The position numbers were made by a program, and so were the translations under genes. The notes under the pieces are model-generated. The model was not told the origin of the DNA. It searched no databases and saw only the letters and a list, made by a program, of their open reading frames with translations. Source: a virus. Taken from it: a stretch of 49,542 bases of DNA. Below are positions 14,797 through 38,279 of the stretch, piece by piece; the stretch's first letter is position 1, and each line of letters begins with the position of its first letter. Location of the stretch: IMG/VR virus record IMGVR_UViG_3300043395_002712, positions 1 to 49,542 of that record. One strand, 5' to 3'.

Positions 14797-15083
14797 TGTG
14801 CAACAAAGCTCAGGGCTTCTACGGCTCAAACGGCATAGTTGAAACCAGTTTTAGCTGGGGGAAATCAATCTCGATTCTGGGGTATGCTATTTATACCCTT
14901 ACGACGCTAGGAAAGGATGGCAATTGGTACGGCTTTAGTGTTCAGGCGCCTGCGCGGGATCGACAGCGTACCGCGAACATGCTCCGAGGAGCACGCAAGC
15001 GCCTTGCGGCAACCGTCAACAGTCACGGCGGCCGTGCTTTCATCAAAGATCAAACCACCATCATTAACAACGAATCATGCTGA
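14796..15083 (+). CDS. Hypothetical protein, 95 aa
   Basis: I use ATG 14796 (MCNKAQGFYGSNGIVETSFS), coupled to the upstream stop. The N-terminal half is beta-rich with aromatic residues (SWGKSISILGYAIYTL, WYGFSVQAP). The second half is a basic helix (RQRTANMLRGARKRLAATVN), so nucleic-acid binding is conceivable. No family was recognised. Confidence 0.6.
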   Translation: MCNKAQGFYGSNGIVETSFSWGKSISILGYAIYTLTTLGKDGNWYGFSVQAPARDRQRTANMLRGARKRLAATVNSHGGRAFIKDQTTIINNESC

Positions 15084-15133
15084 AAAACGACCGCTAGATC
15101 AGGGACGTTTCATCTTGCACGCTTAATTCAACC

Positions 15134-15352
15134 ATGACCTATCTAATCTACGGCTACATCTTTGCCAGCATGTGCTTTGCGGCAGCGTTTTGGGGCTCCT
15201 TTAGCGCTGATCCCAGGAGAAAGAAAGAGGTGGCCAGCATTGGTCAGGCGAGCGTTTTCACTAAGGTCGTTGTCGCCTTGTTTATAGCCTTGATCTCCCT
15301 GGCGTGGCCCGCGCCTGTATTGATTAAGCTCTTCAGGCTCGCCCTTCCATAG
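15134..15352 (+). CDS. Small two-span membrane protein, 72 aa
   Basis: Two hydrophobic helices (YLIYGYIFASMCFAAAFWG, residues 3-21, and VVVALFIALISLAWP, 45-60) are separated by a charged loop (DPRRKKE). The topology matches small class II holins or membrane-anchored early proteins. Its location in the replication operon rather than with the lysis genes makes a holin call insecure. Confidence 0.6.
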   Translation: MTYLIYGYIFASMCFAAAFWGSFSADPRRKKEVASIGQASVFTKVVVALFIALISLAWPAPVLIKLFRLALP

Positions 15353-15378
15353 TTGGCGACTTTGCGGGCTCCGACATC

Positions 15379-15407
15379 TTGCACGGCGTAGCAAGCCGTG
15401 CTATTAT
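15379..15407 (+). promoter_or_regulatory. Promoter with embedded palindrome, upstream of erf
   Basis: -35 TTGCAC (15379-15384), 17-bp spacer, -10 TATTAT (15402-15407). A 7-bp inverted repeat, GCACGGC (15381-15387) and GCCGTGC (15395-15401), fills the space between the two hexamers, the usual place for a repressor operator. The predicted start near 15414 leaves a leader of about 16 nt before ATG 15430, with no Shine-Dalgarno. Confidence 0.65.
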
Positions 15408-15429
15408 TCAACCGCCTACCTTTCCCTTT

Positions 15430-16092
15430 ATGGCACGATCTCCCTCTTCTCCACCGCCGTCCGATACGAGCACCATGCCGCGCAACATGGTGCAACCGGC
15501 GGGAACGGCTCAGCCGGCAAGACCGCAAGCTGCCCCTCTCCTGCAATCCATTGTTGCTGCCTCTCCTGAGTTCGCGGAGATTTTCAAGGACAGTAGCAAT
15601 GCCTTCCTCAACTCCCGCTACCTGAAGCTCCCTGGACTGCTCAAGATCATCAAGCCGCCGCTGCTTGAGCAGGGTGTCATTGTCTACACCCAGGTCGTTT
15701 TTGACTCAACGGCTTCTCAGTGGGTTGTGCGTACCACGCTCTCCAGTGTTAGCGAGCAAGAGGAAATCTATTCAGACTTCCCGATCCATGAGTCGCTTCT
15801 GGGCAATCTGCAAAAGATTGGTGGCGCCATCACCTATGGCACCCGTTACAATCTGTTTGCACTGCTTGCCATCTGCCCTCAAGATGAGGATGATGATGGC
15901 AACAGCGGCAGTAGTGGCGGCAGTGCTTACAACGCTCCCGCTACTGCCGGTGGACTGCCTGGCCTCCCCGGCATGGGTGCTCCGTCGCCGGCAGCCTGGC
16001 CAGCTCCGGGCCAAGAAGTGAAGTCGCCTTCCGCCTCGTTCTCTGGCACGCTCGCCAACCCCGTTCAACCTTCCCCCGTTCTCCCCCAGTGA
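15430..16092 (+). CDS. erf: ERF-family single-strand annealing protein, 220 aa
   Basis: Residues about 40-150 follow the ERF/Sak pattern: helical N-terminus (LLQSIVAASPEFAEIF), then SRYLKLPGLLKIIKPPLLEQ, a strand ITYGTRYNLFALLAICPQDED that carries the family's Y-x-x-R-Y-x-L element, and an acidic turn. The last 70 residues are a Gly/Pro/Ala-rich linker. ERF proteins anneal complementary single strands during recombination and genome circularisation. ATG 15430 is chosen because the upstream TTG (15379) lies in the promoter. It is followed by an SSB-like protein and an exonuclease, giving a complete annealing-type recombination set. Confidence 0.87.
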   Translation: MARSPSSPPPSDTSTMPRNMVQPAGTAQPARPQAAPLLQSIVAASPEFAEIFKDSSNAFLNSRYLKLPGLLKIIKPPLLEQGVIVYTQVVFDSTASQWVVRTTLSSVSEQEEIYSDFPIHESLLGNLQKIGGAITYGTRYNLFALLAICPQDEDDDGNSGSSGGSAYNAPATAGGLPGLPGMGAPSPAAWPAPGQEVKSPSASFSGTLANPVQPSPVLPQ

Positions 16093-16724
16093 CGCAATCT
16101 CAACCGCAACGCAAGCAGCGCCCCATTGACATTTCGCTTTGGACCAACAGGTACAAAAAGGAATCGAAGCACCCTGATTACAGGGGGACCGGCAAGGTCT
16201 CCTGGGATGTTGTTCAGGAGTTGTACGCTGCTTTTCAGTCTGGGAATTATCAGATTGACGACTACAGTCAGCAACCCTACGTTGAGCTTGATGTGACTCT
16301 GTGGGGTCACAACGAGAACATCGGGACCACCAAGCCTGTGCTTACCGGCAGCGCATCGAGCCTGGCCGACACCATGGCCCAGGCTGCCCGGCGTGCCGAA
16401 AGCAGGGCGGCCTGGGCCGGCTTCGGTGGTTCGCCCGAGCAGATCGTCGAGCAGCTCCTGGCCGAGCAGCAGGCGCAGCAGGCGGCTCTCCTGGCTCAGC
16501 AGCAGGCCGAGCAGCAGGCGGCATTCCTGGCGCACCAGCAGCAACAGCAGCAGGCGGCCCTCCTGGCAGCTCAGCAGGCCCAGGCCGCTCAGGCCGCTCA
16601 GGTGGTCGCCGCTCCGGTCCCCACGCCCGTCGCCCCTGCTCCCCTGCCGGCACCCCCGGCCGCCGCGCCCACGCCGATCGCCGGCACGATCCATGGCGGT
16701 GGCGCACTGCCCGCGAACTTCTGA
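16089..16724 (+). CDS. SSB-like protein with Gln/Ala-rich tail, 211 aa
   Basis: GTG start overlapping the erf stop. Residues about 8-85 resemble small phage OB-fold-type proteins (IDISLWTNRYKKESKHPDYR, then a strand YVELDVTLWGHNEN). The W-x-N-x-x-K-K-x-x-x-H-P-D-Y-x-G pattern is typical of SSB-like proteins next to annealing genes. Residues about 110-175 are a long Gln/Ala repeat tract (units like LLAEQQAQQAA) followed by Pro/Ala-rich sequence. I infer single-stranded DNA binding with a flexible partner-binding tail. The Gln/Ala tract is low complexity at DNA level too (repeats of CAGCAG and GCTCAG), so length may vary between relatives. Confidence 0.55.
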   Translation: MTQSQPQRKQRPIDISLWTNRYKKESKHPDYRGTGKVSWDVVQELYAAFQSGNYQIDDYSQQPYVELDVTLWGHNENIGTTKPVLTGSASSLADTMAQAARRAESRAAWAGFGGSPEQIVEQLLAEQQAQQAALLAQQQAEQQAAFLAHQQQQQQAALLAAQQAQAAQAAQVVAAPVPTPVAPAPLPAPPAAAPTPIAGTIHGGGALPANF

Positions 16725-17632
16725 TGCACAAACTTCGTTTGCTCCCCCCGCAAAGGGGGGTTTTTTTTAGCGGACAAGATCACAAGTATTTCTACGGCAG
16801 CGGGCCTGAAGCGATCGAAGTGCCATCGTCGTCGCATATCATCGCCCTGGGTGGCGGCAAGGACTTCGACAAGACCCCATGGCGCAGGTCTCTCTACAAG
16901 GCCGGAGTTAACGCCGAGGACGCGGAATACTACATGGATCGCGTCAGGGATATTCGCGCAGCTATTGGCACGCGCTTTCACTCGTTTGCCGAGCTAAGTC
17001 TGTGTTCACCAGACCCCGGAAGATCCCCCTACGAAGACCCCACAGGGATCCCGGAGAGGGAAGATGCTGAAGCACTGCTGATTCGCGATCAATGGCTAAA
17101 GCACGTCTTGCCGCGCATCGGCAAAGTCTATGTCATCGAAGATCCAATGATCCATCCAGGCGGCTGCTACGGTTTCACGCCGGACCTTATCGCTGAGGTC
17201 GATGGCATCCTGACCCAGTGTGACTGGAAGACGAATCAGGCGGAGAGTTATCGAGAGCGCTTTGGATGGTTGAGTACTTACTGCGACGATCTTAGGATGT
17301 ATCGCATTTGCGAGAAGGTTTTGCAAGCCAAGCTGGCGACCGGCGAATCCCGCGATGTTACGGCCCGCGTCCGCGAGGGCTGGCAGATGCAGCAGGGCAG
17401 CTATGCGTTTGGGGTTGAGGCTGTCCATGGGATGCGGGTCCAGCGAGGGATCAACTTCATGCTATCGGTCGATGGCGTGAAGGAGAAGCACTGGAACAGG
17501 CCCGACCTGGATCAGGGTTGGCTTCAGTTCGCCAATGGACTGCTGCTGCACCATCAGCGGGCCGTCATGGCCGGCGGCCACCCGGTCTTCCAAGCCGCTC
17601 TCAATGCTCTCTACCCGTTGATGCGCCACTGA
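16724..17632 (+). CDS. PD-(D/E)XK exonuclease, 302 aa
   Basis: The conserved opening has an H-x-Y/F-x-Y element (GQDHKYFYGS), then VPSSSHIIALGGG. The catalytic site is Glu-Val-Asp in TPDLIAEVDGIL plus Asp-Trp-Lys in CDWKTN (about residues 157-172), as in RecB-like and lambda-exo-like nucleases. It would degrade one strand so that the ERF protein can anneal the other. ATG 16724 shares a base with the upstream TGA. Oddly, a strong rho-independent terminator (16744-16768) lies inside codons 7-15, so transcription from upstream may end inside this gene. No better downstream start exists before the conserved HKYF segment. Confidence 0.82.
   Translation: MHKLRLLPPQRGVFFSGQDHKYFYGSGPEAIEVPSSSHIIALGGGKDFDKTPWRRSLYKAGVNAEDAEYYMDRVRDIRAAIGTRFHSFAELSLCSPDPGRSPYEDPTGIPEREDAEALLIRDQWLKHVLPRIGKVYVIEDPMIHPGGCYGFTPDLIAEVDGILTQCDWKTNQAESYRERFGWLSTYCDDLRMYRICEKVLQAKLATGESRDVTARVREGWQMQQGSYAFGVEAVHGMRVQRGINFMLSVDGVKEKHWNRPDLDQGWLQFANGLLLHHQRAVMAGGHPVFQAALNALYPLMRH
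16729..16768 (+). terminator. Rho-independent terminator inside the exonuclease 5' end
   Basis: Six C (16744-16749), a five-base loop GCAAA, six G (16755-16760), then eight T (16761-16768). A smaller hairpin CAAAC-TTC-GTTTG (16729-16741) directly precedes it. The sequence looks like an ideal intrinsic terminator, yet it encodes LLPPQRGVFF of the exonuclease. It could act as an attenuator that lowers exonuclease relative to ERF and the SSB-like protein. Confidence 0.8.
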
Positions 17633-17646
17633 TTGCGTGCTACACT
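17618..17646 (+). promoter_or_regulatory. Promoter upstream of the AbrB-like gene
   Basis: -35 TTGATG (17618-17623), exactly 17 bp, -10 TACACT (17641-17646). The predicted transcript start near 17653 gives a leader of about 17 nt to ATG 17670. The promoter overlaps the end of the exonuclease gene and lets the AbrB-like protein be expressed independently. Confidence 0.55.
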
Positions 17647-17669
17647 GCTGGACGTACCGCATTTTTGCA

Positions 17670-18293
17670 ATGCCCACCAAAGTCAAAGCTGCTCCCGCCC
17701 CCGTCGCCGACGAAGTGATGGAAGAGCCCGTCTACGAAGCCCCCGAGGAGGACGAAGGCGACTACGACGAAGACGAAGAGATCGACGGCGACACCGAGGA
17801 GGAGTCCGACGAAGGTTCCGACGACTCCGATGAGCCCGTCCGCAAGGTCGGCCAGGAGCTGCTCGACTTCGTTGAGGCCAAGACCGCCGAAGGCCGCACC
17901 CTCACCGACATCGCCTATCAGGCCGGGTACTACACCCTCACCAAGACCGGCTCTGAGCGCGTTCTGAAGGCACAGTTCAACCAGGCCCTCCTGGAGGCCA
18001 AGGGCTACGACCTGGGTGGGCGCTCCAAGAGCACCGGCACCGGCCGGGGTGGCTCGGGTCTCTCCCGTGCTCGGGTCAGCGGCTCCGGCCTGCTGCTCGT
18101 GTCCCAGCTCGCTGCCCGCGAAGTCGGTGCCATCCCTGGCGCCGTGTTCTCGATCGAGTACCCCACCGGCGATCTCATCGGCCCCGGCGCTCAGATCCTG
18201 CTCACCCTGACCGATGAGTTCCGCGAGGTCGTCCCCCGTGGTTCCCGGAGCGAGGAGGAGCCCGGCACACCGCTGCTCGATGAAGCAGCCTGA
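17670..18293 (+). CDS. Cyanobacterial AbrB-like DNA-binding protein with acidic N-terminal extension, 207 aa
   Basis: Residues 1-56 are a highly acidic, disordered extension (for example EEDEGDYDEDEEIDG). Residues about 60-112 match the N-terminal part of cyanobacterial AbrB-like regulators: ELLDFVEAKTAEGRTLTD, then AYQAGYYTLTKTGSERV and a helix FNQALLEAKGYDLGG. A Gly/Ser/Arg linker is followed by a strand-rich C-terminal part (RARVSGSGLLLVSQLA, GAIPGAVFSIEYPTGD), equivalent to the swapped-hairpin DNA-binding portion. In cyanobacteria these proteins act as global regulators of carbon/nitrogen genes and of phage-like islands. A phage copy may mimic or titrate the host regulator, or control phage promoters. 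The acidic extension could neutralise DNA binding or mimic DNA. A bidirectional terminator follows. Confidence 0.75.
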   Translation: MPTKVKAAPAPVADEVMEEPVYEAPEEDEGDYDEDEEIDGDTEEESDEGSDDSDEPVRKVGQELLDFVEAKTAEGRTLTDIAYQAGYYTLTKTGSERVLKAQFNQALLEAKGYDLGGRSKSTGTGRGGSGLSRARVSGSGLLLVSQLAAREVGAIPGAVFSIEYPTGDLIGPGAQILLTLTDEFREVVPRGSRSEEEPGTPLLDEAA

Positions 18294-18307
18294 TCCAGGG
18301 GATCAAC

Positions 18308-18340
18308 AGAAAGCCCACGGTTCGCGCCGTGGGCTTTCTT
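18308..18340. terminator. Bidirectional rho-independent terminator
   Basis: A perfect 13-bp stem AGAAAGCCCACGG / CCGTGGGCTTTCT (18308-18320 and 18327-18339) with loop TTCGCG. It separates the convergent replication operon (plus) and structural/lysis operon (minus). T-rich sequence follows on both strands. Confidence 0.88.
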
Positions 18341-18346
18341 GTGTGC

Positions 18347-19057
18347 CTACTGCTCCTGGAAGACGCCGACGTAGACCTTGCCTTTCTGGGTGAGCGGTAG
18401 CACGAGATCACGCAGGGCGTCGTTGTGCATCCTGATGCACCCGTAGGTCGGCAGAAGCGGCTGCTTGGGCGCCCAGGCCCCGGGCCAGCCATTGCCGCTC
18501 CCGCCGCCGTGCAGCATGATCCCGGCCCTGCCGTTCGTCGCCTCCTGATTCTCCAGCTCCACCAGGTCGAACGAGTACCAGCCGTAAGCCTTGAGGGTGT
18601 CGTTGCCGGCGGGATGGGAGCCGACTTCCTCGTAGTCCTTGTGGATCTGGCCGATCACGTAGAGCCCTGGCGGGGTGTCGCTGTTGCGGGTGCGCCAGTC
18701 ACGATCTGAGCCCTGGCCCCGGGCCAATGCCGGCGCTCGCCACAGCAGCTTGCCGGTGTGGTCGTAAGCCTCGCAGTCCTGATCGCGGTCGTTCACGAGC
18801 AGGTAGGAGTCCCCTGGCTTCATCGGCGCCTTCATGCCGGGCCCAGTCATGCCGGCTTCCTCCTTGCCCCTCGGGTCGAGCCCGCCGGCAGGAATGAGAG
18901 GTTGCTTGGACGGCACCGCGCTGACCCAGATCGATCCCAGCTCGCCGCCGTCCTCCAGGCTGCCGGGCGGCAGATGCTGCTCAACAGCGGCCCAGAAAGC
19001 GACGTGATGCGAGAGGTCGAAGTTTGTGTTCTCGACGCAGGAGCGAAGGGTTCTCAT
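18347..19057 (-). CDS. YkuD (L,D-transpeptidase fold) domain protein, lysis candidate, 236 aa
   Basis: Residues about 80-235 match the YkuD domain: SYLLVNDRDQDCEAYDHTGK (strand pair), DTPPGLYVIGQI (the T/D-P-x-G-x-Y element), IMLHGGG with His183, and YGCIRMHNDA with Cys207, Arg209 and Asn212, the usual catalytic C-I-R-M-x-N. A Tyr replaces the common His before Gly-Cys. The family forms or cleaves 3-3 peptidoglycan cross-links. In a phage, just downstream of two small membrane proteins, it most likely weakens the cell wall for lysis. No signal peptide is seen, so it would need a holin or other export. The N-terminal 80 residues are unique. No other endolysin gene was recognised; the M15-like motif inside the tape measure is the only other cell-wall signature. 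Confidence 0.82.
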   Translation of the reverse strand: MRTLRSCVENTNFDLSHHVAFWAAVEQHLPPGSLEDGGELGSIWVSAVPSKQPLIPAGGLDPRGKEEAGMTGPGMKAPMKPGDSYLLVNDRDQDCEAYDHTGKLLWRAPALARGQGSDRDWRTRNSDTPPGLYVIGQIHKDYEEVGSHPAGNDTLKAYGWYSFDLVELENQEATNGRAGIMLHGGGSGNGWPGAWAPKQPLLPTYGCIRMHNDALRDLVLPLTQKGKVYVGVFQEQ

Positions 19058-35038: not shown

Positions 35039-35063
35039 AAAAAAGCGGGGCATGAGCCCCGCT
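35039..35063 (-). terminator. Rho-independent terminator after the major tail protein gene
   Basis: Stem AGCGGGG / CCCCGCT (35044-35050 and 35057-35063) with a 6-base loop, followed on the minus strand by six T. It would lower transcription of the chaperone and tape-measure genes relative to the abundant major tail protein. Confidence 0.82.
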
Positions 35064-38255: not shown

Positions 38256-38279
38256 AAAAAAGGGGGCTCGCGCCCCCTT
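38256..38279 (-). terminator. Rho-independent terminator/attenuator after the major capsid gene
   Basis: Minus-strand stem GGGGG / CCCCC with a CGCGAG loop, followed by six T. It lies 25 bases past the capsid stop and before the small 65-residue gene, so it probably sets the excess of capsid message over connector message. Confidence 0.8.

Follow-up and report, generated by a model that had tools for sequence, protein, structure and literature searches.

The gene for the DNA-recombination exonuclease of a phage carries, in its codons 7-15, an intrinsic terminator that probably acts as a fixed attenuator inside an ERF-SSB-exonuclease transcription unit. The window analysed is the whole of a 49,542-nucleotide IMG/VR record (IMGVR_UViG_3300043395_002712), a phage record with tail and head genes related to those of cyanobacterial siphophages such as S-2L and KBS-S-2A; the phage family consists of freshwater cyanobacterial viruses. 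Function names were assigned by profile matches, and the exonuclease gene (16724..17632, + strand) matches the phage exonuclease profile phrog_298 over residues 18-254 (E 2.2e-14). A search for this exonuclease among named phages returned only T4-like cyanophage exonucleases of approximately 30% identity, a search among bacterial genomes returned no informative relatives, and the exonucleases of S-2L and KBS-S-2A have N-termini unlike that of the window exonuclease. The AlphaFold model of the protein (pLDDT 51) was left out of the conclusions.

In the window, codons 7-15 read CTC CCC CCG CAA AGG GGG GTT TTT TTT, and the RNA would form a six-pair hairpin followed by U8. The C6-GCAAA-G6-T8 element starts 20 bases after the A of the ATG, just as the earlier note had described it. 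CCCCCC at 16744-16749, GCAAA at 16750-16754 and GGGGGG at 16755-16760 make up the hairpin (16744..16760, + strand), of which the register can slide, with outer pairs from 16742; the T8 tract (16761..16768, + strand) is read in frame as (G)TT TTT TTT, encoding V-F-F, and is followed by in-frame AGC. This is the arrangement that characterizes an intrinsic terminator, a G+C-rich hairpin directly before a U-tract. The hairpin has a folding energy of -13.8 kcal/mol, and dinucleotide shuffling of the whole window, repeated 100 times, gave an average of 0.06 equally strong sites over both strands. The same residues were also recoded synonymously with the codon usage of the exonuclease gene family. 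Of 2000 recodings for the window, none matched or surpassed the natural hairpin while carrying a T-tract of 7/8 or better; 0.1% passed when the requirement was relaxed to 5/8 T, and in no relative did more than 0.6% of recodings combine a 7/8 T-tract with a hairpin as strong. The T-tract alone arises in 58% of synonymous recodings; therefore, in one single sequence the significance rests on the hairpin, and conservation is a better test than recoding. An assembly error in T8 was rejected, as a second IMG/VR contig is identical to the window over 13.4 kb, T8 included, and the relatives keep T7-8 in frame. Rfam yielded no match at gathering score within 15000-18500.

Relatives were collected through the portal protein, which led to 80 related contigs, and exonuclease genes were taken from some of these and from a profile scan. 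The conservation set consists of 19 relatives with an intact 5′ end and 59-70% protein identity (L112 misses the first base of the start codon). The earlier note had proposed that the hairpin be weighed against the encoded residues in relatives: all 19 have a hairpin with U7-8 at the same codons, giving 20 sequences with the window, although the 19 represent one phage group and are not independent cases. There are three hairpin sequence classes, namely class A (CTCCCGGCTCAGCCGGGAG-T8, with variants), that of the window (C6-GCAAA-G6-T8) and that of L125 and L128 (GCCCCCGCAAGGGGGC-G-T7C), and the residues differ accordingly (LLPAQPGVFF, LLPPQRGVFF, LLPPQGGVFF). The pairing registers of the three classes lie one base apart, but all three hairpins end at one and the same position ahead of the U-tract; selection thus seems to act on the fold and the U-tract junction rather than on the sequence. 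Changes on both sides are found at three pairs, at one of which L115, a class A variant, has U-A in full exchange for C-G, and 93% of the cells in the alignment are paired compared to 31-56% in slid controls. No other nine-codon stretch of the gene varies as little at synonymous positions as codons 7-15 (observed/expected 0.51); in the 12 representative sequences, V13 is always GTT and F14 is always TTT. Recoding statistics, pairing and low synonymous variation together indicate that the conservation of the hairpin goes further than the residues alone would demand. When viral contigs were scanned for the class A hairpin pattern, 16 contigs matched, each of which had already been collected through its exonuclease.

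A mini-hairpin that the earlier note had placed ahead of the terminator, CAAAC-TTC-GTTTG (16729..16741, + strand), is present in the window outside the element, but it is not conserved (56% of cells paired) and is a chance feature. It was the only antiterminator candidate; both it and a pairing of GTTTGC with GCAAA were rejected in that role, being absent from the relatives.

The terminator lies within a translated frame. The exonuclease ATG (16724-16726) shares its A with the TGA (16722-16724) of the upstream gene, and a start later than 16724, which the earlier note had also considered difficult, was rejected because the relatives conserve the residues of codons 1-6 and share no start codon downstream of them. 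The codons of Leu4 and Leu6 vary synonymously at the expected rate while leucine is kept in nearly all sequences, indicating that the N-terminus is translated, and the frame is conserved. The segment of codons 7-15 is, on the evidence of its codons, one that serves protein and RNA at once.

The cassette begins with a promoter-like site, followed by genes for an ERF annealing protein and a single-strand DNA-binding protein (SSB), the exonuclease gene with its embedded terminator, a second promoter-like site and an AbrB-like gene. The ERF single-strand annealing protein is encoded at 15430..16092 (+ strand, profile match); a scan of viral contigs with ERF returned nothing informative. The upstream gene that overlaps the exonuclease ATG (16089..16724, + strand) encodes a protein of the SSB family, of which 14 of 15 members match phrog_18154, the window's own copy scoring below the cut-off. 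The C-terminal tail of this family is variable and rich in Q, A and P, and in many members it ends in a short conserved motif, GxIHG...LPxxF. A model of the N-terminal domain resembles structures that have been predicted for other proteins of phages, one of them from A-4L; a fold search of the PDB with the same model returned no significant match to any solved structure. Promoter-like sites were identified as matches to a consensus pattern. An extended -10 element, TGCTATTAT (15399..15407, + strand), stands 22 nt before the ERF start, and such an element stands 21-24 nt ahead of the ERF start in 6/6 genomes examined; another, TGCTACACT (17638..17646, + strand), stands between the exonuclease stop and the AbrB-like gene, which is preceded by TGSTAYNNT in all relatives. 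The conserved extended -10 motif TGCTAYNNT before both ERF and the AbrB-like gene provides this phage group with a candidate consensus for its promoters. The AbrB-like gene (17670..18293, + strand, profile match), which stands behind a promoter-like site of its own, encodes a cyanobacterial-type transcription regulator whose N-terminal part includes a very acidic stretch. The promoter-like sites before ERF and after the exonuclease frame the unit, within which the genes are co-directional and no promoter-like site separates the terminator from the exonuclease, as befits an attenuator.

From the hairpin, its conservation, the frame and the gene order, we infer termination, a degree of read-through and a purpose in gene dosage. 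RNA polymerase would start just before ERF and produce mostly a bicistronic ERF-SSB mRNA ending in the U-tract at approximately 16761-16768, while a minority of transcripts would read through and encode the exonuclease. Because the terminator is inside the exonuclease orf, a complete exonuclease mRNA can arise only by reading through it, wherever the promoter sits; the genes ahead of the exonuclease in the unit do not face it. With the terminator unavoidable in codons 7-15, the catalytic, DNA-degrading nuclease would remain in short supply compared with the stoichiometric proteins for coating and annealing of single strands, which is the likely benefit. Terminated messages would contain a start codon but lack the stop, and the ribosomes on them would need rescue; this cost speaks against the attenuator. 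In Escherichia coli, a terminator is functional when it lies within 100 bp of the beginning of a coding region (PMC4824070), and in Synechococcus elongatus, which lacks Rho, a longer U-tract means lower read-through (PMC13289151). The U-tract of the exonuclease site is the longest among the terminators listed in 7/7 genomes compared.

It is possible, though unlikely, that read-through is instead gated by translation as in the pyrBI attenuator, with a ribosome that follows closely behind the polymerase, either coming from the SSB gene or just initiated on the exonuclease, blocking the hairpin. The position of the terminator inside the translated region is conserved, and the distance from the upstream stop to the hairpin is 17-25 nt in all relatives for which the stop was read except L128 (33 nt); this is within or near the zone of less than about 27 nt in which a ribosome at an upstream stop codon partly represses a terminator in E. 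coli (PMC4824070). On the other hand, a terminator placed 30 bp into a second orf in E. coli was repressed only approximately 10% by translation of that orf, keeping nearly all of its efficiency because over the first 100 bp or so an initiating ribosome seldom catches up with RNA polymerase (PMC4824070), and no conserved antiterminator structure was found in the relatives. The earlier note had proposed attenuation within a translated region, with read-through granted by a ribosome initiating on the exonuclease and exonuclease mRNA synthesis coupled both to its own translation and to the upstream gene. The terminator is indeed inside a translated orf, but the E. coli result speaks against the initiating ribosome; coupling to the upstream gene seems the more plausible half of the idea, and full control by translation of the exonuclease may be regarded as possible. 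A variant of similarly low probability is that codons 1-15 act as the gene's own leader, read-through being set by ribosomes that cross from the SSB stop to the exonuclease start, in which case the amount of nuclease mRNA would scale with translational coupling, in a host that lacks Rho. The pyrBI attenuator is likewise a terminator in a translated frame where the spacing of ribosome and polymerase can decide read-through, but it has a separate leader peptide and pause sites, whereas the coding sequence here is that of the exonuclease itself. Taken with the spacing of 17-33 nt here, the E. coli spacing data best support a fixed attenuator with some sensitivity to translation of SSB.

The hairpin could be an element for RNA stability, processing or initiation of translation rather than a terminator, which is improbable. 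By its position, it would begin just past the likely footprint of an initiating ribosome, and no Shine-Dalgarno sequence is evident upstream of the exonuclease in most of the sequences shown. However, such an element explains neither the invariant GTT and TTT codons of the U-tract nor the change of hairpin sequence around a fixed U-tract junction. A slippage cassette, in which the hairpin makes the polymerase slip on U8 to give frameshifted messages and a truncated product, appears if anything slightly less probable still. Slippage stimulated by a hairpin beside terminator-like signals is known from Roseiflexus IS630, where a hairpin within a gene likewise immediately precedes a homopolymeric tract (PMC5009743), and in the phages with T8 one extra U would bring a stop right after codon 15. 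Unlike that system, the exonuclease gene is readable without slippage; the same slip in L125 and L128, which have T7C, would give a product of 39-41 amino acids, the length of the -1 product varies between 28 and 127 amino acids, and a slippage or frameshift product was rejected because no alternative-frame product is conserved in the relatives. That residues and codon bias yield the hairpin by chance, with protein constraint alone maintaining it, is already disfavoured and very improbable, for although VFF is readily encoded as GTT TTT TTT, a hairpin of such strength arises in about 1% or fewer of recodings, there are three sequence classes with differing residues, and synonymous variation is at its lowest in the gene here.

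The fixed attenuator can be compared to other terminators in these genomes. Terminators outside genes follow the major head protein (38261..38278, - strand) and the major tail protein (35045..35062, - strand) in the window, each with a promoter-like site after it. Modules of this kind after the major head protein, the major tail protein or both are found in the window, G003, G004, G005, G006, G010 and G013, with a layout of hairpin, T5-6, an extended -10 such as TGCTATGATT approximately 20 nt further on, and then the next gene. In contrast, the exonuclease terminator is inside a gene, and no conserved promoter-like element follows until the gene ends. Anabaena phage A-4L also has an ERF-SSB-exonuclease cassette with a terminator at the SSB/exonuclease junction (L163 4373-4391), but there the terminator is intergenic, between the SSB-like gene and an exonuclease gene of the Cas4-domain type without detectable similarity to that of the window. 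The A-4L terminator counts in favour of the attenuator. Pam2 and PA-SR01 have weaker terminator candidates after SSB, and in Pf-WMP4 and Lbo240-yong1, where an SSB-like gene precedes an exonuclease-like gene, no terminator was found at the junction, a point against it.

Internal operon terminators that set unequal expression include Tphi after gene 10 of phage T7 and T1 of rpsU-dnaG-rpoD. The exonuclease element resembles them as a hairpin and U-tract that separates, within one unit, a gene probably required at high levels from one required at lower levels; these examples are intergenic, whereas the signal here is in the codons of the downstream gene, with no bypass by an intervening promoter. 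Termination sites inside operons are among the results reported for Methanococcus maripaludis (PMC10450193). RNA 3′ ends inside orfs of E. coli have mostly been attributed to processing or to Rho (PMC7815308). There is a likeness in position to lambda tR2 engineered into E. coli genes (PMC4824070), where the terminator also comes soon after a start codon within an operon and produces stop-less messages. Those cases are constructs, whereas about 20 phage sequences share the present element.

Intrinsic terminators in coding regions are usually taken as chance matches that translation suppresses. A fold that is kept while the hairpin sequence and even the residues change is good evidence that a terminator inside an orf can be a selected regulatory part. 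The exonuclease gene of these phages may represent a compact natural design for low output of one gene in an operon, and offers a system for testing the interplay of RNA polymerase, ribosome and terminator in Rho-less cyanobacteria.
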